Origin: a virus
Length of the DNA stretch: 49,426 bases
IMG/VR virus record: IMGVR_UViG_3300036832_000397
Coordinates: 1-49,426 of that record
Direction: 5' to 3' (one strand)
In this document: positions 29,034-37,706 of the stretch, one piece after another
Layout of the letters: each line of letters starts with the position of its first letter
How positions within the stretch are numbered: position 1 is the first letter of the stretch
Notes under the pieces: model-generated
Told to the model about the DNA's origin: nothing
What the model saw: the letters and a program-made list of their open reading frames with translations, nothing else
Databases searched by the model: none
Made by a program: the position numbers and the translations under genes

Positions 29034-29220
29034 GCTATTCAAACGTGATCCTCTCCAACTCAGCCGCACAGAAGACATTCCACAGATCGTTGCATACTAT
29101 CGGGAAAAGCTCCAACAGTTCCAACTCGGTGATAAATCAGCAGGTTCAACAAAGAAGATGAAGAACAACGGGCCTAAACCTACAATCAATCTCGATGACA
29201 TTCTATCGGAGATACTCTGA
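29017..29220 (+). CDS. Small conserved-type protein (67 aa)
   Basis: ATG at 29017 with AGAAGGAG upstream (MTDINELFKRDPLQLSRTED). The pattern RDPLQLSRTEDIPQIVAYYR is found in short proteins of rhizobial-type phages, generally next to nuclease or recombinase genes. Function unknown. The stop shares a base with the next ATG. Confidence 0.65.
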   Translation: MTDINELFKRDPLQLSRTEDIPQIVAYYREKLQQFQLGDKSAGSTKKMKNNGPKPTINLDDILSEIL

Positions 29221-30173
29221 TGCTAACACCAGCCGCTTATACAACGGACGATATGAGAAGTCCAAGTCCCTTTCTCGAAGGAAACGTCCAATACGCATTC
29301 GACTCAACCTCGCTAGGATGGTTAAAAGAATGCCCCCGCAAATATTACTACTCAATGATAGTTGGCTGGCGACCCAAGACCGATAACGTCAACATAAAGT
29401 TCGGTGGGTGGTATCACCAGGGCCTTGAGTTCTACGATAGAGCCAAGGCCGCTGGTGCCACTCACGATGATGCGCTTTGTGACGCGGTTTGGTTCTTGAT
29501 GAAGGCAACATGGGAAGATGGAAAACCCTGGCAATCAGATCATAATACTAAAACAAGAGAGACTCTTATTCGATCAGTGGTTTGGTATCTCGATACTTTC
29601 GGTCAAAGTGATCCTGCGCGAACCATCGTGCTTGCCGATGGGCGTCCGGCAGTTGAGCTGTCTTTCCAACTTAATCTTGATTGGGGACCAACGCCTTCCC
29701 AACCTTACGTGCTCTGCGGACACCTGGATCGATTAGTGGAGTACTCTAATGGTATCTACGACATGGATCGAAAGACAACTGCATCAACACTATCTTCGTC
29801 TTGGTTTGATCAGTTCGATCCTGACAATCAAATGTCGCTCTATTCCTTTGCGTCAAAGGTTATCTATAAAACGGAGATTAAAGGTGTTATCATCGATGCA
29901 GCGCAGATTGCAGTTGGATTTACTCGCTTTAGTCGAGGCTTCACCTACAGAACCGAGTCCCAAATCGAAGAATGGCTCGATGACCTGCGGTACTGGTTCA
30001 ACCAGCAGAAGGAACTCGCGGAGGCGGGCAAGTGGCCGATGAACGATAAATCCTGCCATAAGTATGGGGGATGCCACTTTAGAAAGGTGTGCTCGAAGAG
30101 TCCGGAGGTGAGAGATGTGTTTCTGAATAGTGACTTTGAGAAGCATCCGTGGAATCCGCTGGAGGCACGATGA
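29220..30173 (+). CDS. PD-(D/E)XK nuclease, Cas4/RecB-like (317 aa)
   Basis: The active-site region is LCGHLDRLVEYSNGIYDMDR followed by KTT: HLD (motif II Asp) and D-DRK (motif III). A Cys near LGWLKECPRKYYYS and a C-terminal CHKYGGCHFRKVC supply four cysteines placed like the iron-sulphur cluster of Cas4/AddB-type exonucleases. It would degrade DNA ends or produce 3' tails. With the Sak4-like ATPase and SSB-like genes that follow, it forms a recombination module. No CRISPR genes are nearby. Confidence 0.85.
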   Translation: MLTPAAYTTDDMRSPSPFLEGNVQYAFDSTSLGWLKECPRKYYYSMIVGWRPKTDNVNIKFGGWYHQGLEFYDRAKAAGATHDDALCDAVWFLMKATWEDGKPWQSDHNTKTRETLIRSVVWYLDTFGQSDPARTIVLADGRPAVELSFQLNLDWGPTPSQPYVLCGHLDRLVEYSNGIYDMDRKTTASTLSSSWFDQFDPDNQMSLYSFASKVIYKTEIKGVIIDAAQIAVGFTRFSRGFTYRTESQIEEWLDDLRYWFNQQKELAEAGKWPMNDKSCHKYGGCHFRKVCSKSPEVRDVFLNSDFEKHPWNPLEAR

Positions 30174-30553
30174 CAAAGCTATCAGCAATCACAGATCAAC
30201 TTCGTGGTATCAAGGAGATCACTCGTTGGTCACGACTATGTGGTATTTATTTTCTTTTTAACGATGATGAGCTGCTATACATTGGGAAAAGTACAAATGT
30301 ATTAGCTCGTATAGCTATGCACGCCGCAAAAAGTTCTAATATGAAATTTGACAGAGCGTTTTTCATTCCTGTAAACGAAAAGGAACTCGATATAGTGGAG
30401 AAAACATTGATACATATGTTTGGAACAGCTAAAAATACCAGAAGGCCCGACTTTATAGCGCTGAACGATAGAGCGATCGTGGCTATGATTGATGAAATGG
30501 AGCTTGAACTGCCTCTGACAGCAATGGGAGCGAATGATGTCCTCCCTCGCTGA
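30170..30553 (+). CDS. GIY-YIG nuclease domain protein (127 aa)
   Basis: ATG at 30170 overlaps the previous stop (ATGA). Core: LCGIYFLFNDDELLYIGKST, then NVLARIAMH (Arg) and a later Glu in DIVEKTLIHMF, the GIY-YIG catalytic pattern. Bases 30241-30420 are only about one-third G+C by my count, far below neighbouring genes, which suggests recent acquisition. It could be a homing-type or repair nuclease; no intron or obvious target is seen. It overlaps the next gene by about 20 bases. Confidence 0.8.
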   Translation: MTKLSAITDQLRGIKEITRWSRLCGIYFLFNDDELLYIGKSTNVLARIAMHAAKSSNMKFDRAFFIPVNEKELDIVEKTLIHMFGTAKNTRRPDFIALNDRAIVAMIDEMELELPLTAMGANDVLPR

Positions 30554-31313
30554 CCCCGACCAACCCTCTTTCGTCAAGCTTATCCTGATCGGGGACAGCG
30601 GGACGGGCAAGACTGGGGCCTTGGCCTCATTGGTTAAGGCCGGTTACAAACTCAGGGTATGGGATTATGATAATAAAATCGCCGGTGGCATTCTCCCCAT
30701 CATCCTAAAGCGCGAATGCCCCGACAAGCTAGCAAACGTAGAATACGTCGCACTCCGCGACGAGTATCGCGCAACGCTTACTGGACCAGCTTACGACGGT
30801 ACTCCGAAAGCTTGGCCAGAAGGCATGGCCCTCATCGACAAGTGGACAGACGGTTCTAAACCGAAGGAATGGGGACCGGAGGTCATAGCTGTATTCGACT
30901 CGATAACTATGATGGGCGACGCTGCGTTCAACTGGATCAGCGCGATGAACCCCTCGGTTAAGGACCCGAGACAATGGTATGGCAATGCCCAGAAGGGCGT
31001 CGATAAAATGCTTGCCATTATGTCCTCGGTCCACTTTAAAACGAATGTGATAGCAATCTCCCATGTTAACTGGGTCAACAGGCCTGATGGCACGATGAAA
31101 GGTTACCCCTCATCGATCGGCCAGGCCCTCGACCCATATATCCCAACGTACTTCGAGAATATGGCGCTCTGCGAAACGAACGCAGGAAAGCGCTATATCA
31201 GGGTGACACCGACTGCACTTGTTGACCTGAAGAGTCCGGCAGCTTTCAAGATGGTGCCACAGATGCCGGTTGAGACTGGACTAGCAACCTTCTTCGAAAC
31301 CTTAAGAGGATAA
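30534..31313 (+). CDS. Sak4-like RecA-fold ATPase (259 aa)
   Basis: ATGATG at 30534/30537. Walker A GDSGTGKT (about 20-27), Walker B VIAVFDSITMM, and a sensor-like NVIAISHVNWV. The layout, including the NKIAGGILPIILKRE block after the first strand, matches the Sak4 group of phage single-strand annealing/recombination ATPases. It should load on ssDNA with the SSB-like protein encoded 2 bases downstream. Confidence 0.8.
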   Translation: MMSSLADPDQPSFVKLILIGDSGTGKTGALASLVKAGYKLRVWDYDNKIAGGILPIILKRECPDKLANVEYVALRDEYRATLTGPAYDGTPKAWPEGMALIDKWTDGSKPKEWGPEVIAVFDSITMMGDAAFNWISAMNPSVKDPRQWYGNAQKGVDKMLAIMSSVHFKTNVIAISHVNWVNRPDGTMKGYPSSIGQALDPYIPTYFENMALCETNAGKRYIRVTPTALVDLKSPAAFKMVPQMPVETGLATFFETLRG

Positions 31314-31869: not shown

Positions 31870-32121
31870 ATGCACGAGCGTTGGAAGGTGTGGAGGGAAT
31901 CCGTTTCGTTTCCTGGCTGGGTCAGACATTATAAAACCTATCAGGAATTTGTCTTTGATAATGAAGAGGAAGCCAAGGAATACGCTGTCAGGTTGAGTCT
32001 CCGCTATGGTAATAGCTATAGAGCGGTAAAGCTGGATTTTGAGCCAGTCAAAGCAAACGAACTGGACGAAAGTGAGCGCATCCGCAAGTCAGCAGAAAGG
32101 AGACAAAATGACATCCGGTGA
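31870..32121 (+). CDS. Early small protein, ERWK-W family copy 2 (83 aa)
   Basis: ATG at 31870 behind AAAGGAG (MHERWKVWRESVSFPGWVRH). Shares ERWK(I/V)W, an aromatic strand and DNEEEAKEYAVRLSLR with 22792-23001, plus an extra charged C-terminal tail of about 20 residues. It overlaps the ParB-methyltransferase start by 14 bases. Function unknown. Confidence 0.75.
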   Translation: MHERWKVWRESVSFPGWVRHYKTYQEFVFDNEEEAKEYAVRLSLRYGNSYRAVKLDFEPVKANELDESERIRKSAERRQNDIR

Positions 32122-33373
32122 GTTTCATAGAATCCCGGTGGATAAACTATGGGTTGCTCGTGATGAACGACAGAGAAGGAAACTAGATGAAGAGCACATA
32201 AGTGCGCTTGCTGATAGCATCCGTCGTATCGGCCTTATTCATCCTCTCGTTATCGATCGAGACTATAGGGTATGGGCTGGCGAGTGCAGATTCATGGCCC
32301 TTAAAATGCTTGGTCATGACTCTACGGTATGCCAGTTCCTCGATGAGCTGGATGAAGCGACGCGGATTGCAGTAGAGTTCGAGGAGAATGTTAAGCGTCG
32401 TGACCTTACATGGCAGGAACAGTGTAATACCGTCGCCAAGTATCATTCCATTCGACTAACCCAGGAACCAGGATGGAGTCGTGAGGAAACAGGAAAAGCT
32501 CTCGGTCTAAAGGATCGTACTACTCGATGCTATTTCATGATTAATGAAGAGGCGAAGAAAAACCCGGAGATAATGAAAGCTCCCGAGCTATCAACAGCGC
32601 AAGGGATGGCTGCTCGATATAGTGAAAAAAGGAGCGATATGGAGATGGAGCGGGCTCTTGGCTTTAAGATTGTCGATAACGAGACCAAAGAAAAAGGTCC
32701 CTCAATCATAACCGCCGACTTCACCGAGTGGGTCAAGACCTACGACGGCCCTCGCTTCAACTTTCTTCACTGTGATTTCCCCTATGGTATCGAGACAGAT
32801 AAGCGACAGCAGGGAAACGCGGTGACGGTACTTGGAGGCTACGATGATACGCCAGACACTTATTTTCGCCTACTTGGTGCTCTCTGCGATAATATTACTC
32901 GCGTTTGTACTGATACTGCCCACATTATGTTTTGGTTCTCCATGCGGTACTATCACGACACTCTGGAGTTTTTCAGTGCTCACAGCGACTTCGTCATTGA
33001 TCCTTTTCCTCTTGTTTGGCTAAAGTCAGACGGCGTAGGATTGCTGCCAGACCCACAACGTGGGCCAAGGAGGATATATGAAACGTGCCTCTTCGGATCA
33101 AGAGGAGACAGAAAGATTGTGTCTTCGGTCGCTAATGCGTTCGCAAGTCCAACGGATATCAAAGACCACGTGTCTACGAAACCCGAACCTGTCCTGTGCC
33201 ACTTCTTCCGAATGTTCGTTGACGAGAACTCCGTTGTCCTTGATCCCACCTGTGGTTCTGGAAGTGCGTTGCGAGCGGCTAAGTCTCTGGGCGCAGGACA
33301 TGTCTTCGGCATTGAAATAAATGCAGAGTTCGCTGATCAAGCAAACCGACGGATGAGGGCAGATGCTATCTAA
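32108..33373 (+). CDS. ParB-like nuclease domain fused to DNA methyltransferase (421 aa)
   Basis: ATG at 32108 behind AAAGGAGAC. Residues 1-100 are ParB/Srx-like: IPVDKLWVARDERQRRKLDE, SIRRIGLIHPLVIDRDY and AGECRFMALKML. A helical linker follows. The C-terminal methyltransferase has a catalytic tetrapeptide DFPY (about 223-226; usual form DPPY) and a later AdoMet-binding DPTCGSGS (about 379-386), an order typical of beta-class amino-methyltransferases (N6-adenine or N4-cytosine). It may protect phage DNA or mark it. Target sequence unknown. Confidence 0.87.
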   Translation: MTSGEFHRIPVDKLWVARDERQRRKLDEEHISALADSIRRIGLIHPLVIDRDYRVWAGECRFMALKMLGHDSTVCQFLDELDEATRIAVEFEENVKRRDLTWQEQCNTVAKYHSIRLTQEPGWSREETGKALGLKDRTTRCYFMINEEAKKNPEIMKAPELSTAQGMAARYSEKRSDMEMERALGFKIVDNETKEKGPSIITADFTEWVKTYDGPRFNFLHCDFPYGIETDKRQQGNAVTVLGGYDDTPDTYFRLLGALCDNITRVCTDTAHIMFWFSMRYYHDTLEFFSAHSDFVIDPFPLVWLKSDGVGLLPDPQRGPRRIYETCLFGSRGDRKIVSSVANAFASPTDIKDHVSTKPEPVLCHFFRMFVDENSVVLDPTCGSGSALRAAKSLGAGHVFGIEINAEFADQANRRMRADAI

Positions 33374-34403
33374 GATCGCCATCGTCGGGGAAGCCTGGGG
33401 TGAACAGGAGGAACGCCAGCAGCAAGCCTTCGTCGGCCCCACTGGATACGAGTTGATGAAGATGCTTGGCGAGGCAGGCATCCGTCGTTCTGAGTGTTAT
33501 CTAACCAACGTCTTTAACTTGCGACCGAGGCCAACCAATGACATCATCAATCTTTGCGCAGATGTCCGCCCTGCGGATACGGGCGGATTGCCCTCACTAT
33601 CCCGCGGGAAGTATCTTCGTCCAGAATATCTTCCCCAGGTCAATCGCCTATATGCTGAGTTGTCCCGAGTGCGGCCTAATCTTACAATCGCAGTGGGTAA
33701 CACAGCAACCTGGGCCTTGTTGCTTAATACGGGAATTACTAAACTTAGGGGAGTTGTACAAGCCGCCACGGCGTCCAAGGTCGCGGGTCTCAAAGTACTC
33801 CCAACCTATCATCCCGCCGTCCTCTTCAAAGGACCCGACTCGTGGGGACTCAGACCCATCATCGTGATGGACCTCAAGAAGGCCAGGCGCGAATCCGAGT
33901 TTCCCGAAGTCCGACGGCCGGAGCGCTCCATCTACATCGAACCCACACTCGCTGATCTTGAATGGTTCTACCAGACCTACTTGCTGGACGCCAAGGAGAT
34001 AACCTTTGACATTGAAACGGCTGGAGACATTATTACTTGCATCGGCTTCGCACCCTCGCCTTCAATCGCCCTTGTCGTACCTTTCAGTGACCCTAGGAAG
34101 CCGAACGGCTCGTATTGGCCCACGGACGGACATGACGTGGAGGCATGGAGGTTTGTGGCTAGAGTTCTTGCTTTGCCGTGCAAGAAGTCCGCACAGAACG
34201 GCCTCTACGACATCACCTTCCTCTGGAAACAATATGGAATAACCGTGAACAACTTCGAGGACGATACTATGTTATTACACCATGCCTTGCAGCCCGAGTC
34301 AGAGAAAGGCTTGGGCTTTTTAGGCTCTATCTATACGAACGAGGCCGCATGGAAAACGATGCGGAAGCGGGCAAGGGATGATACGATAAAGAGGGAACAA
34401 TGA
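33363..34403 (+). CDS. Uracil-DNA glycosylase fused to N-terminal part of a polymerase 3'-5' exonuclease (346 aa)
   Basis: Residues 1-175 are a family 4/5-like glycosylase: GEAWGEQEERQQQAFVGPTG (Trp where Pro is usual), NVFNLRPRPTN, and the HP motif LKVLPTYHPAVLFKG. Residues about 210-330 are the start of a DnaQ-like exonuclease of polymerase I type: FDIETAG (exo I, 215-221), AQNGLYDITFL (exo II, Asp about 283) and EDDTMLLHHALQ. The protein stops before exo III, which is at the start of the polymerase gene (35042). The pieces probably act as a complex. It overlaps the methyltransferase by 11 bases. Confidence 0.85.
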   Translation: MLSKIAIVGEAWGEQEERQQQAFVGPTGYELMKMLGEAGIRRSECYLTNVFNLRPRPTNDIINLCADVRPADTGGLPSLSRGKYLRPEYLPQVNRLYAELSRVRPNLTIAVGNTATWALLLNTGITKLRGVVQAATASKVAGLKVLPTYHPAVLFKGPDSWGLRPIIVMDLKKARRESEFPEVRRPERSIYIEPTLADLEWFYQTYLLDAKEITFDIETAGDIITCIGFAPSPSIALVVPFSDPRKPNGSYWPTDGHDVEAWRFVARVLALPCKKSAQNGLYDITFLWKQYGITVNNFEDDTMLLHHALQPESEKGLGFLGSIYTNEAAWKTMRKRARDDTIKREQ

Positions 34404-34585
34404 CAAAGACAGATGCAGAACAGCACGCAGCAGTATGGAAGCTTGCAGACGATATAGTTATGGTCGCAGTGCAGAAAGCCCAGGCGGGTGGAAGTGTGGA
34501 ATTAGTCGCAGCCCTACTTGGCGCAAGTCATTTAGCCGAGGCTGTCAGCAAGAGTTATGATACAATGGCAAAGGCACTGAAATGA
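34400..34585 (+). CDS. Small helical protein inside the split polymerase locus (61 aa)
   Basis: Starts MTKTDAEQHAAVWKLADDIV; alanine-rich helices with LVAALLGASHLAEAVSKSYD. Overlaps the glycosylase-exonuclease stop and the next start, each by ATGA. Function unknown. Confidence 0.65.
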   Translation: MTKTDAEQHAAVWKLADDIVMVAVQKAQAGGSVELVAALLGASHLAEAVSKSYDTMAKALK

Positions 34586-34920
34586 GGGTGGTGGTAGAGT
34601 CGCCATTCGCCGGGGGCTTTGGAAATGTCAGGTACGGGAGGGAGTGTCTCAGGGACTGCATCGATCGTGGCGAGTCTCCATTTGCGTCACACCTTCTATA
34701 CGCACAGAAGGGACTACTTAGTGATAGCATTCCGAAGGAACGGAAGAGAGGTATGGAGGCTGCACACGCTTGGTTGGAGGTCGCGGATTGTGTCTGCGTT
34801 TATATGGACTTGGGTATCACTCCTGGTATGGTGGCAGGGATTGTCCACGCTGCTCGACTCGGAAAGTCAATCAGGCTGAGGTGGATTAGGGGAGGGAAAA
34901 GGGAAGAGGTGGTGGAATGA
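34582..34920 (+). CDS. DUF7768-like protein (112 aa)
   Basis: Starts MRVVVESPFAGGFGNVRYGR. The pattern VESPFAG ... RECLRDCIDRGESPFASHLL, then DLGITPGM and A-LGKSIRLRW, matches a phage family (DUF7768, to my recollection) distantly like nucleoside 2-deoxyribosyltransferases. It may act on nucleotides, which would suit its place between DNA-synthesis genes. Function is inferred only. Confidence 0.7.
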   Translation: MRVVVESPFAGGFGNVRYGRECLRDCIDRGESPFASHLLYAQKGLLSDSIPKERKRGMEAAHAWLEVADCVCVYMDLGITPGMVAGIVHAARLGKSIRLRWIRGGKREEVVE

Positions 34921-35045
34921 CTATGATAGAAGTCAGGTTGGCTGACCGTTGGTTGATCGCAGATGGTAACGAACCGCTCTTGCGTGAGATGGTGGTGTAT
35001 CCTTGGACATGGCGTACACCACTCTGGTTTTGGGCCGTAGAATGA
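34917..35045 (+). CDS. Small Trp-rich protein before the polymerase (42 aa)
   Basis: A short gene: MTMIEVRLADRWLIADGNEP then LLREMVVYPWTWRTPLWFW. ATGA overlaps on both sides place it in the translational chain leading to the polymerase start at 35042, which supports it as real. Function unknown. Confidence 0.6.
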   Translation: MTMIEVRLADRWLIADGNEPLLREMVVYPWTWRTPLWFWAVE

Positions 35046-36571
35046 AGATCATCAAGACCCACGAACTCACCCCCGCGACCATGCCCGCCAGCGAGACAGA
35101 GAAGCTCTGGATTTATAACGGCCTCGACTGCTGCGTAACCAATGAGGTCCTCCACATCATTCAGCCACAGCTCGACAACCAGACCCGCGCCATCTACGAG
35201 TTCTCCAAGTCCCTTCAAGCCCCCGTACTGGAAATGAAACTCCGCGGGGTCCTGATCGACCCAGACCTTCGTAATCGCGTAGTACAAGCGTACCAGAAAG
35301 ACATCGCATACCTATCCGAGAATCTTAACGCCATCGCCCGCGAAGGCATTGGAATGGCCAGTGTAAACTTCGCGAGCCCCAAACAGCTAAAGGAGTTATT
35401 CTATGAAAGGCTCAAAATCCCACCAATCAAAAAGCGTACCCGCATCAATGGAGAGTACACCTACACCCCGACAGTCGATCGAAATGCTCTTGAACAGTTG
35501 GACAACTACTTTCTCGCCCAACCCCTTATCTCACATATCCTTGGTCTCAGAGATCTTGCGAAGAAAGTATCTGTACTTAGAACCAATATTGACTCTGATG
35601 GCAGAATGCGAACATCATACAATATCGCAGGAACCTCAACAGGCCGTTTCAGCTCTAGCCTCTCAGATTTCGGGACTGGAACAAACTTGCAAAACATTGA
35701 AGACCGCTTGCGATCGGTATTTGTTGCAGACCCAGGGATGAAGTTCGCCTACGTTGACCTTGAACAAGCCGAGTCCCGACTGGTCGGCGCAATAGAATGG
35801 AACCTGTTTCATGACCCAACCTACCTTGACGCCTGCGAGAGTGGAGATCTCCATACGAGCGTATGCCAACTCGCATGGGGAGACGCCGTCCGTTGGACCG
35901 GACGAATTGATGAAGATAAGAAACTGGCTGAACAGCCTTTTTATCGGCAACATAGCTTTAGACACATGGCAAAGGTACTTGGCCACGGAACAAACTATAA
36001 CGGCAAGCCTCATACTATGTCCAAACACACCAAGCTCGATGCTAAACTCATCGCCGAGTTTCAGTCCAAATACTTCGCCGCCTTTCCAGCCCATCAACGC
36101 TGGCACGCCCACGTTGCTTCAGAGCTTCGCCAGCATGGCAATCTTACCTCTCTTACTGGCCGCCGCCGTTGGTTCTTTGGTCGGCGTGATGATGACTCTA
36201 CTGTTCGCGAAGCTATAGCTTTCGACCCACAGGGTTCAGTAGCCGACATTCTTAACAGGGGGATGCTCAACGTATGGAGGGAAAACATATGTCAACTCTT
36301 GTTGCAAATCCACGATGCCATTCTAATTCAATATCCAGAGGATCAGGAGGATCGGGTAGTCCCACTCGTGATACAAGCGATTAAGGTGCCCATCGAGCTT
36401 CTCCACGGCAGAACATTAGTCATCCCCAGCGAGGCTAAAGTGGGATGGAACTGGGCATCTTATTCAGAAGAAAATCCCGATGGTCTTACCAAGTGGCGTG
36501 GCGCAGATCGAAGAACCCGCCAGAGGCCGGCGCCTGCACAACTGGATTTCGTCCTTCACTCGACTAACTGA
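35042..36571 (+). CDS. Family A DNA polymerase, with C-terminal part of the exonuclease (509 aa)
   Basis: ATG at 35042 (MKIIKTHELTPATMPASETE). Residues 22-31 hold the exo III signature Y25-NGL-D29 (LWIYNGLDCC). The rest is the polymerase: TSTGRFSSS (about 199-207), motif A VDLEQAESR (Asp about 239), motif B RHMAKVLGHGTNYNG (about 307-321) and motif C QIHDAI (Asp about 425, Ala where Glu is usual). It is the phage replicase. Exo I and II are on the protein encoded at 33363-34403, so proofreading needs both chains. Confidence 0.92.
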   Translation: MKIIKTHELTPATMPASETEKLWIYNGLDCCVTNEVLHIIQPQLDNQTRAIYEFSKSLQAPVLEMKLRGVLIDPDLRNRVVQAYQKDIAYLSENLNAIAREGIGMASVNFASPKQLKELFYERLKIPPIKKRTRINGEYTYTPTVDRNALEQLDNYFLAQPLISHILGLRDLAKKVSVLRTNIDSDGRMRTSYNIAGTSTGRFSSSLSDFGTGTNLQNIEDRLRSVFVADPGMKFAYVDLEQAESRLVGAIEWNLFHDPTYLDACESGDLHTSVCQLAWGDAVRWTGRIDEDKKLAEQPFYRQHSFRHMAKVLGHGTNYNGKPHTMSKHTKLDAKLIAEFQSKYFAAFPAHQRWHAHVASELRQHGNLTSLTGRRRWFFGRRDDDSTVREAIAFDPQGSVADILNRGMLNVWRENICQLLLQIHDAILIQYPEDQEDRVVPLVIQAIKVPIELLHGRTLVIPSEAKVGWNWASYSEENPDGLTKWRGADRRTRQRPAPAQLDFVLHSTN

Positions 36572-37706
36572 GAACATGGAATGCCCAGAGATTTTTAGGA
36601 AGTGGGCTGGTATTGGTGTCTTGTCGTCGGTGTTGGAACGAAGGGTTTGGAACCGAACAGGAAAGGGTGTCTTGTTCCCTAACCTCTATATCGTCTTGGT
36701 TGGGCCTCCTGGTACTGGCAAGTCACTTGTCGTTTCGTTTAGCGAAAAGGTGATCCGTGCAGTTCAAGATATCCATGTGGCGCCTTCATCTGTTACGGCT
36801 GCCAGTCTCGTTGACACCCTCCAGCTGGCTATTCGAAAAATACTCCATCCCGTATTTTTTCAGTTCAACTCATTATCAGTCGTATCCTCTGAACTTCAGA
36901 ACTTTCTCCCAGCATACGAAGCAACTTTTATGGGGATGCTCACTAAGCTGTATGACTGTGAGCTATATGAGGAGCGACGAAGGACCGGGAAGGTTCAGCA
37001 TATTCGCATTGACAACACGCACCTATCGTTACTTGCTGGTACTACGCCGTCGTACCTAAGCAATCTCCTGCCAGAGGGTGCGTGGGATCAGGGCTTTACG
37101 TCTCGTACCATCTTCGTCTTTTCCGAAGCGCCGGAAGGCGTGGGTGAGATCTTTCAAGAAGATGAGGACTTCGACTATAACGAGCAACTCCTACAGGATT
37201 TGATTGCTGATCTTAAAGGCATTATGCATCTAGTAGGACAGGTCCAGTGGAGTCCGCCGGCGAAGAAGGCAATTCAAAAGTGGGCCAACGATGGACGCTT
37301 ACCAGTACCCGAGCATGGGCGCCTTACCCACTACAACACCCGCCGTACCACTCAGGTCCTTAAGCTCGGATTGATCGCCAGTGTCGCCCGCAATAACGAT
37401 ATGCTTGTGGAGCCGCAGGATTTTGATATGGCGCTGGCATGGCTGTTGGAGGCTGAAAGGGTGATGCCTGACATCTTCCGTCAGATGTCCACCACCGCCG
37501 AGTCCCGTTCAATGGAGGACGCGCGCTTCTACCTTAAACAATTATCTGTAAAGCTGAATGGCCCGGTCCCAGAACACTTCCTCCTTGCATTCCTAAAGGA
37601 CCGTATCCCATCACAGCATCTCGCGAAGGTCATAGAGATCATGGTTAAATCGCGAATGCTCAAAGCTTCATACAAGGATGGCATCACGTTCTATACTACT
37701 TTTTAG
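36480..37706 (+). CDS. DUF3987-like replicative helicase/ATPase (408 aa)
   Basis: Walker A VGPPGTGKS (about 74-82), preceded by FRKWAGIGVLSSVLERRVWN and FPNLYIVL, and followed by VVSSELQNFL and LLAGTTPSYLSNLL, the arrangement of DUF3987/RepA-type phage helicases. It starts at ATG 36480 (or GTG 36498), overlapping the polymerase end by 92 (or 74) bases; a later start would remove the conserved HNWISSFTRLT segment. Last gene of the early arm; it meets the late arm tail to tail. Confidence 0.8.
   Translation: MVLPSGVAQIEEPARGRRLHNWISSFTRLTENMECPEIFRKWAGIGVLSSVLERRVWNRTGKGVLFPNLYIVLVGPPGTGKSLVVSFSEKVIRAVQDIHVAPSSVTAASLVDTLQLAIRKILHPVFFQFNSLSVVSSELQNFLPAYEATFMGMLTKLYDCELYEERRRTGKVQHIRIDNTHLSLLAGTTPSYLSNLLPEGAWDQGFTSRTIFVFSEAPEGVGEIFQEDEDFDYNEQLLQDLIADLKGIMHLVGQVQWSPPAKKAIQKWANDGRLPVPEHGRLTHYNTRRTTQVLKLGLIASVARNNDMLVEPQDFDMALAWLLEAERVMPDIFRQMSTTAESRSMEDARFYLKQLSVKLNGPVPEHFLLAFLKDRIPSQHLAKVIEIMVKSRMLKASYKDGITFYTTF

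Follow-up and report, generated by a model that had tools for sequence, protein, structure and literature searches.

Replication enzymes encoded in pieces are an established kind among phages, and splits of family A DNA polymerases are known in the LUZ24-like and OM43 phages. Here we describe a family A polymerase in the IMG/VR virus record IMGVR_UViG_3300036832_000397 (positions 1 to 49,426; this whole stretch of 49,426 nucleotides is referred to as the window), in which the 3'-5' exonuclease (proofreading) domain is divided between two open reading frames (ORFs). From sequence comparison and structure modelling, we consider it quite probable that the window encodes a two-chain (gene-in-pieces) enzyme with a composite exonuclease site completed in trans.

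The T4-like Aeromonas phages 25 and 44RR likewise make their replicative polymerase from two genes, gp43A and gp43B, whose products co-purify and have polymerase activity (PMC2988022). A homing-endonuclease gene is associated with the gp43 split in phage 25, and whether an endonuclease or an untranslated insert caused the split was left open (PMC2988022). These polymerases belong to family B and have an unrelated fold, whereas that of the window belongs to family A, is broken between exonuclease motifs II and III, carries an attached glycosylase and is a member of a 45-locus clade. Ribonucleotide reductase NrdA of Aeromonas phage Aeh1, which is split by mobE in a functionally critical region and is active as two chains (PMC2988022), is comparable as an essential phage enzyme cut at a critical region; however, it is another enzyme, has been described from a single phage, and has a gap that still holds the endonuclease.

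Among family A enzymes, the LUZ24-like phages (Bruynoghevirus; PMC3890496) have a polymerase annotated as parts I, II and III, in which the exonuclease and polymerase genes are separate and several small genes lie between them; unlike the window's polymerase, it has no glycosylase domain. When aligned, LUZ24 part I was found to hold motifs I, II and III (D11, E13, D67, Y131, D135). The LUZ24 split was therefore rejected as an instance of the same break, since it falls after motif III, between the exonuclease and polymerase domains. In the OM43 phages MEP401 and MEP402 (Zobellviridae), a family A polymerase is encoded by two ORFs that a single small ORF separates, and the break is inside the polymerase domain (PMC10580990) rather than inside the exonuclease as in the window. 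The PolI of Thermus phage G20c retains exonuclease activity with an SbetaalphaR insertion (PMC9629493). Alignment of its P23-45 homologue (D121 ... K176 ... Y245) placed this insertion between motifs II and III; it is an in-frame insertion within one chain, in contrast to the split in the window, and occupies the same inter-motif segment, so that its retained activity is independent evidence for a loop tolerant of interruption. The fused polymerases of Microcystis phage Mel-JY34, MW202489 and the PHROG family phrog_17 share domain order and neighbouring genes with the window but are single chains, with a linker of 13-20 residues at the split site. A search of the open-licence literature found no report of a split that falls between motifs II and III of the exonuclease.

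Relatives were collected by scanning IMG/VR with each chain singly, which returned sequences from 95% to about 30% identity. The comparisons below rest on 47 split loci, comprising 45 of the main clade (window included) and the loci L056 and L081, and on 21 fused rows; split loci entered the alignment read through their stops. The parts of the polymerase in the window are as follows.

33363-34403, plus strand: N chain, 346 residues; family-4-like uracil-DNA glycosylase (UDG) domain (residues 3-158), then the N-terminal portion of the 3'-5' exonuclease domain.
34008-34016, plus strand: exonuclease motif I, D216-I-E218, on the N chain; unchanged in all 47 split and all 21 fused rows.
34197-34211, plus strand: exonuclease motif II, N279...D283 (QNGLYD), on the N chain; unchanged in all 47 split and all 21 fused rows.
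34356-34400, plus strand: N-chain C-terminal tail (consensus ...TIKRDE*), on the N side of the breakpoint; same end in split relatives, and the AlphaFold2 model is disordered at the homologous residues.
35042-36571, plus strand: C chain, 509 residues; exonuclease motif III helix, then a complete family A polymerase domain.
35114-35128, plus strand: exonuclease motif III, Y25-NGL-D29, on the C chain; unchanged in all 47 split and all 21 fused rows.
35756-36316, plus strand: polymerase motifs A (D239), B (R307, K311, Y319) and C (H424-D425); conserved in essentially all rows.

Both ORFs, their coordinates and the locations of the motifs had been given by an earlier reading of the DNA letters (the sequence-only reading), and all were confirmed by ORF calls, Pfam and PHROG. 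Its description of the N chain as glycosylase-fused also held, with a match to Pfam UDG PF03167 at E 4e-18; the DNA_pol_A_exo1 match of the same chain (E 3e-3) lies below the Pfam cut-off (17.8 vs 23.6 bits). The C chain matches DNA_pol_A PF00476 at E 2.6e-41 and contains family A motifs A, B and C. The exonuclease motifs DxE, NxxxD and YxxxD are all present but are distributed over two chains. Against the fused family phrog_17 ('DNA polymerase'), the N chain covers positions 481-814 and the C chain 804-1238; since the chains fill consecutive stretches, no domain is missing at the join. The C-chain start codon is supported by a conserved MKxIKTHEL start in relatives, and the two ORFs together equal one chain of relatives, with a homologous breakpoint.

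The residues of the divided site are under constraint. D216, E218, N279 and D283 of the N chain and Y25 and D29 of the C chain do not vary in any split or fused row, whereas glycosylase motif residues vary across the same rows. The exonuclease part is as well conserved as the polymerase, and pairwise distances within the split clade correlate more closely between the N-chain exonuclease half and the polymerase (r = 0.91) than between that half and the glycosylase to which it is joined (0.78). The ratio of nonsynonymous to synonymous substitution rates (dN/dS) in the exonuclease part is 0.05-0.15, a thin line of evidence from the three pairs computed. Because the catalytic residues are all kept, the two pieces very probably reassemble. 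No DnaQ-type (RNase_T) exonuclease was found elsewhere in the window contig, which leaves nothing of that type to substitute for the polymerase exonuclease.

For structure prediction we used the relative L012, in which the two chains lie in one frame, separated by one stop codon and a spacer of 8 codons; its read-through translation could thus be modelled with natural sequence only, in place of the joined pair; rows from annotated phage records were left out of the AlphaFold2 input alignment. The model has a mean predicted local distance difference test score (pLDDT) of 92.0 and a predicted template modelling score of 0.87, and only residues 325-343, which correspond to the breakpoint, fall below pLDDT 50. 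Foldseek matched it to the Klenow fragment (8oo6, TM 0.78; 1kfs, TM 0.77; target-normalised). The motif III helix has a pLDDT of about 97 in L012, where the N chain is present, vs about 81 in the C chain of the window modelled alone, which is well predicted overall. In the model, L012 is one Klenow-like enzyme with both pieces packed into one domain, and the absence of predicted contact that the sequence-only reading had named as a ground against itself was not seen. That reading had also placed the breakpoint within the active site. In sequence order this is right, but the model puts the break outside the active-site core, in a disordered loop that leads from motif II to motif III.

A cultured example is available. 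Caulobacter phage Kuura, which forms plaques, falls within the split clade and has two small genes in its gap, and the split enzyme is its one annotated DNA polymerase. Its N chain (the exonuclease half) is annotated as a hypothetical protein, which means that existing annotation misses the split enzyme; a DNA polymerase is reported in the paper on Kuura, and no comment on a split was found in the passages retrieved from it.

In a tree of 70 rows from which the junction columns were left out, the 45 split rows, window included, form one clade (SH-aLRT support 100), which indicates one ancestral break. The identical breakpoint, with the same end sequences, is found in 44 other distinct loci, so the split in the window is more than chance. 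The N chains of split relatives end in ...KRDE* or a variant of it and their C chains begin with M-K-x-I... or a variant, and the gap between them ranges from -4 to 1924 nucleotides (nt); in L017, L020, L022 and L032 the two halves themselves share an ATGA overlap. The clade is internally diverged to about 37-45% identity. A survey of relatives for fused versions, proposed in the sequence-only reading, located them in the next clades out (Mel-JY34, MW202489, vir526 and a Desulfofustis phage), and most share neighbours with the split loci: the gene upstream is ParB-like or encodes a methyltransferase, and the one downstream is DUF3987/primase-like. The fused linker has 13-20 residues (median 17), and the tails of the split forms sum to 23-44 residues, 38 being typical.

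The split loci L056 and L081 are nested within the fused MW202489-like clade, and a single origin of their splits was rejected by the approximately unbiased test (p = 0.0002, careful tree). As they do not form one clade, the homologous loop has seen at least three changes of fusion status; the tree by itself does not tell fission from re-fusion. No prophage or cellular copy was found in GTDB genomes. Two family members are broken elsewhere. Vibrio phage vB_VspS_VS-ABTNL-3 (L062, 2909-6043) is split inside the polymerase domain, near the position of C-chain residue 215 in the window, with a 184-residue ORF between the halves (phrog_8380/phrog_4796), and MW202554 (L063, 1859-4361) is split after motif III with a 151-nt gap, which could be a frameshift in the record.

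The gap of the window holds three ORFs.

34400-34585, plus strand: gap ORF 1, 61 residues, an orphan; ATGA overlap with the N chain, and no convincing Pfam or PHROG match.
34582-34920, plus strand: gap ORF 2, 112 residues; DUF7768, nucleoside 2-deoxyribosyltransferase (NDT) superfamily-like (Pfam DUF7768, 2e-23; phrog_355, 4e-17).
34917-35045, plus strand: gap ORF 3, 42 residues, an orphan; ATGA overlaps on both sides.

ATGA overlaps are present at all four junctions from the N chain through these ORFs to the C chain. The three small ATGA-joined genes noticed in the sequence-only reading are thus borne out as ORFs with overlaps, but only the middle one is conserved: gap ORFs 1 and 3 have no counterpart in the other 46 split loci and are putative as coding sequences. 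Gap ORF 3 is absent even from the closest relative of the window, L002, whose DUF7768 gene directly abuts the C chain. Across the split loci, a 4-nt or 1-nt overlap of the C-chain start with a preceding stop is present in 24 of 47, compared with 23 of 235 internal control ATGs, an excess that suggests translational coupling.

Comparison of gap contents identifies the gap as an insertion slot in which small, mobile and orphan genes turn over. An NDT-superfamily gene (DUF7768 or DUF1937) sits in the gap of 30 of the 47 split loci, DUF7768 in the subclade of the window and in others, and DUF1937 in the subclade of L052. Outside the gap, the neighbourhoods retrieved for the main split clade yielded no further copy; in L056, of the other clade, such a gene lies upstream of the N chain, and fused Mel-JY34 has a DUF1937-like gene immediately upstream of its polymerase. 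Homing-endonuclease-like genes occupy four gaps: those of L002 (HNH_3), L003, L043 (HNH_3/AP2) and L081 (HNH). That of L003 is LAGLIDADG_3 by Pfam, just below cut-off, and matches phrog_5046, labelled HNH, at 1e-18. Other passengers of the slot are FkbM methyltransferase, RNase H-like, MazG-like and second NDT-type genes (L042 7310-8014; L066 5091-5609; L049 7010-7471; L008 4902-5324). The functions attached to gap genes here are putative.

Turnover is evident among close relatives. L018, L020 and L023 have near-identical polymerases, with gaps of 225, -4 and 194 nt whose contents are unrelated. DNA divergence at the break rises 1.7- to 3.6-fold in five close pairs with unlike gap contents (window/L002, L018/L020, L018/L023, L020/L023 and L012/L044), and no rise was seen there in four pairs with like contents (L013/L014, L089/L090, L051/L053 and L007/L008). 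This pattern is suggestive of ongoing exchange centred on the gap, or of conversion tracts.

The observations fit a scheme in which one operon would make both chains, with the ATGA overlaps coupling translation along the N chain, the small genes and the C chain. The chains would then associate, completing non-covalently an exonuclease domain that proofreads, the break having been placed in an interruption-tolerant loop between motifs II and III. The sequences show that the split was fixed once, in the ancestor of the phage clade, that fusion status altered twice more at the same loop in the sister clade, and that the loop has since taken in and lost an NDT-superfamily gene, genes for homing endonucleases and small orphan ORFs. 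A mobile endonuclease as the cause of the first cut is a guess. Several points weigh against parts of this scheme. The link in the L012 model is covalent, with a stop codon and spacer read as residues, which favours packing; because this link is artificial, the model supports compatibility of the pieces and does not prove assembly. A homing-endonuclease gene, carried in the gap by the window's closest relative L002, is absent from the gap of the window and of most relatives. The divergence peaks are modest in single pairs, in which 5-15% of windows are as high, and all split examples except Kuura are metagenomic.

The metagenomic source also raises the question of an assembly or sequencing artefact, to which we give negligible weight, as dozens of assemblies made independently, and the isolate Kuura as well, have the same break. 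The sequence-only reading had left a choice between assembly of the chains and loss of proofreading. A break inside the exonuclease domain could mark the onset of decay, with the motifs as relics; yet the five catalytic residues are invariant in 47/47 split loci of so divergent a group, and the exonuclease part combines low dN/dS in the computed pairs with conservation equal to that of the polymerase, so that loss of proofreading is very unlikely. Assembly is favoured by these invariant residues together with the correlated distances, the confident joint model and a cultured phage that carries the split form as its one annotated polymerase. It is somewhat less improbable, though still unlikely, that the N chain acts apart as a free glycosylase-nuclease without forming a stable complex. 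The genes are separate and lie almost 2 kb apart in some phages (L042), but without motif III the N chain would lack the active-site tyrosine and aspartate and the closing helix, and the invariance of motif III on the other chain is sensible only if the chains meet, as the joint model also indicates.

Restoration of a single chain, whether by RNA or protein, has little to recommend it. Introns have been invoked for the LUZ24-like and OM43 polymerase splits (PMC3890496, PMC10580990), though the authors of PMC10580990 leave the OM43 cause unexplained, and an intron, intein or trans-splicing could in principle join the halves. Splicing-out of the gap had been named in advance as contrary evidence; nothing relevant was found by Rfam in the window, at the gathering cut-off or at E up to 10, and neither the gap ORFs nor either chain had a Pfam intein match. 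Polymerase sequence runs right up to the end of the N chain and resumes at the very start of the C chain, the ATGA-overlapping halves of L017, L020, L022 and L032 have no intervening sequence to remove, and gap contents are unrelated between loci, all of which makes splicing a slim prospect. Slimmer still is the production of some fused polymerase by ribosomal frameshifting or stop read-through. It would suit the 4-nt overlap of L020-type halves and the single frame of L012, but hundreds of bases of other genes separate the halves in the window and most relatives, and the clade-wide conservation of the split would be left unexplained.

An extension of the two-chain interpretation, which we regard as doubtful though less so than the alternatives above, is that the split is kept because it is functional. 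The glycosylase/half-exonuclease chain would be a docking proofreading subunit, making proofreading and glycosylase access dependent on assembly and hence regulable or exchangeable, and the NDT-superfamily protein of the slot (30/47 loci) would be a third component of the complex, acting on uracil or modified nucleotides.

If the two-chain interpretation holds, dozens of phages and one isolate would carry a family A polymerase that is naturally stable as two chains and has its exonuclease site completed in trans. Proofreading could then be added or withheld via one chain, making the balance of proofreading to polymerisation directly testable. The repeated change at one loop, with gaps from nothing to 2 kb, offers a time series of essential phage genes becoming genes in pieces.

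The N-terminal domain has the UDG superfamily profile and the GEA..G / HP motifs expected of family 4, and the L012 homologue matches Thermus family 4 UDG (1ui0) at E 7e-15, aligning to it only from about residue 36. In family 4 UDGs, two of the four cysteines that bind the Fe-S cluster lie in the N-terminal part. The domain appears from its alignment to lack that part, and the cluster may be absent.

Immediately upstream of the polymerase operon in the window, 32039-33373 encodes a fusion of a ParB N-terminal domain with an N6/N4 DNA methyltransferase, and a ParB-like or methyltransferase gene occupies the same place in most fused relatives. Further upstream (29220-31313), a PD-(D/E)XK nuclease and a Sak4-like AAA gene form a recombination module on the same strand. 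Downstream, the DUF3987/primase-like ORF as called (36480-37706) overlaps the polymerase end by 92 nt, and its true start may be further in.

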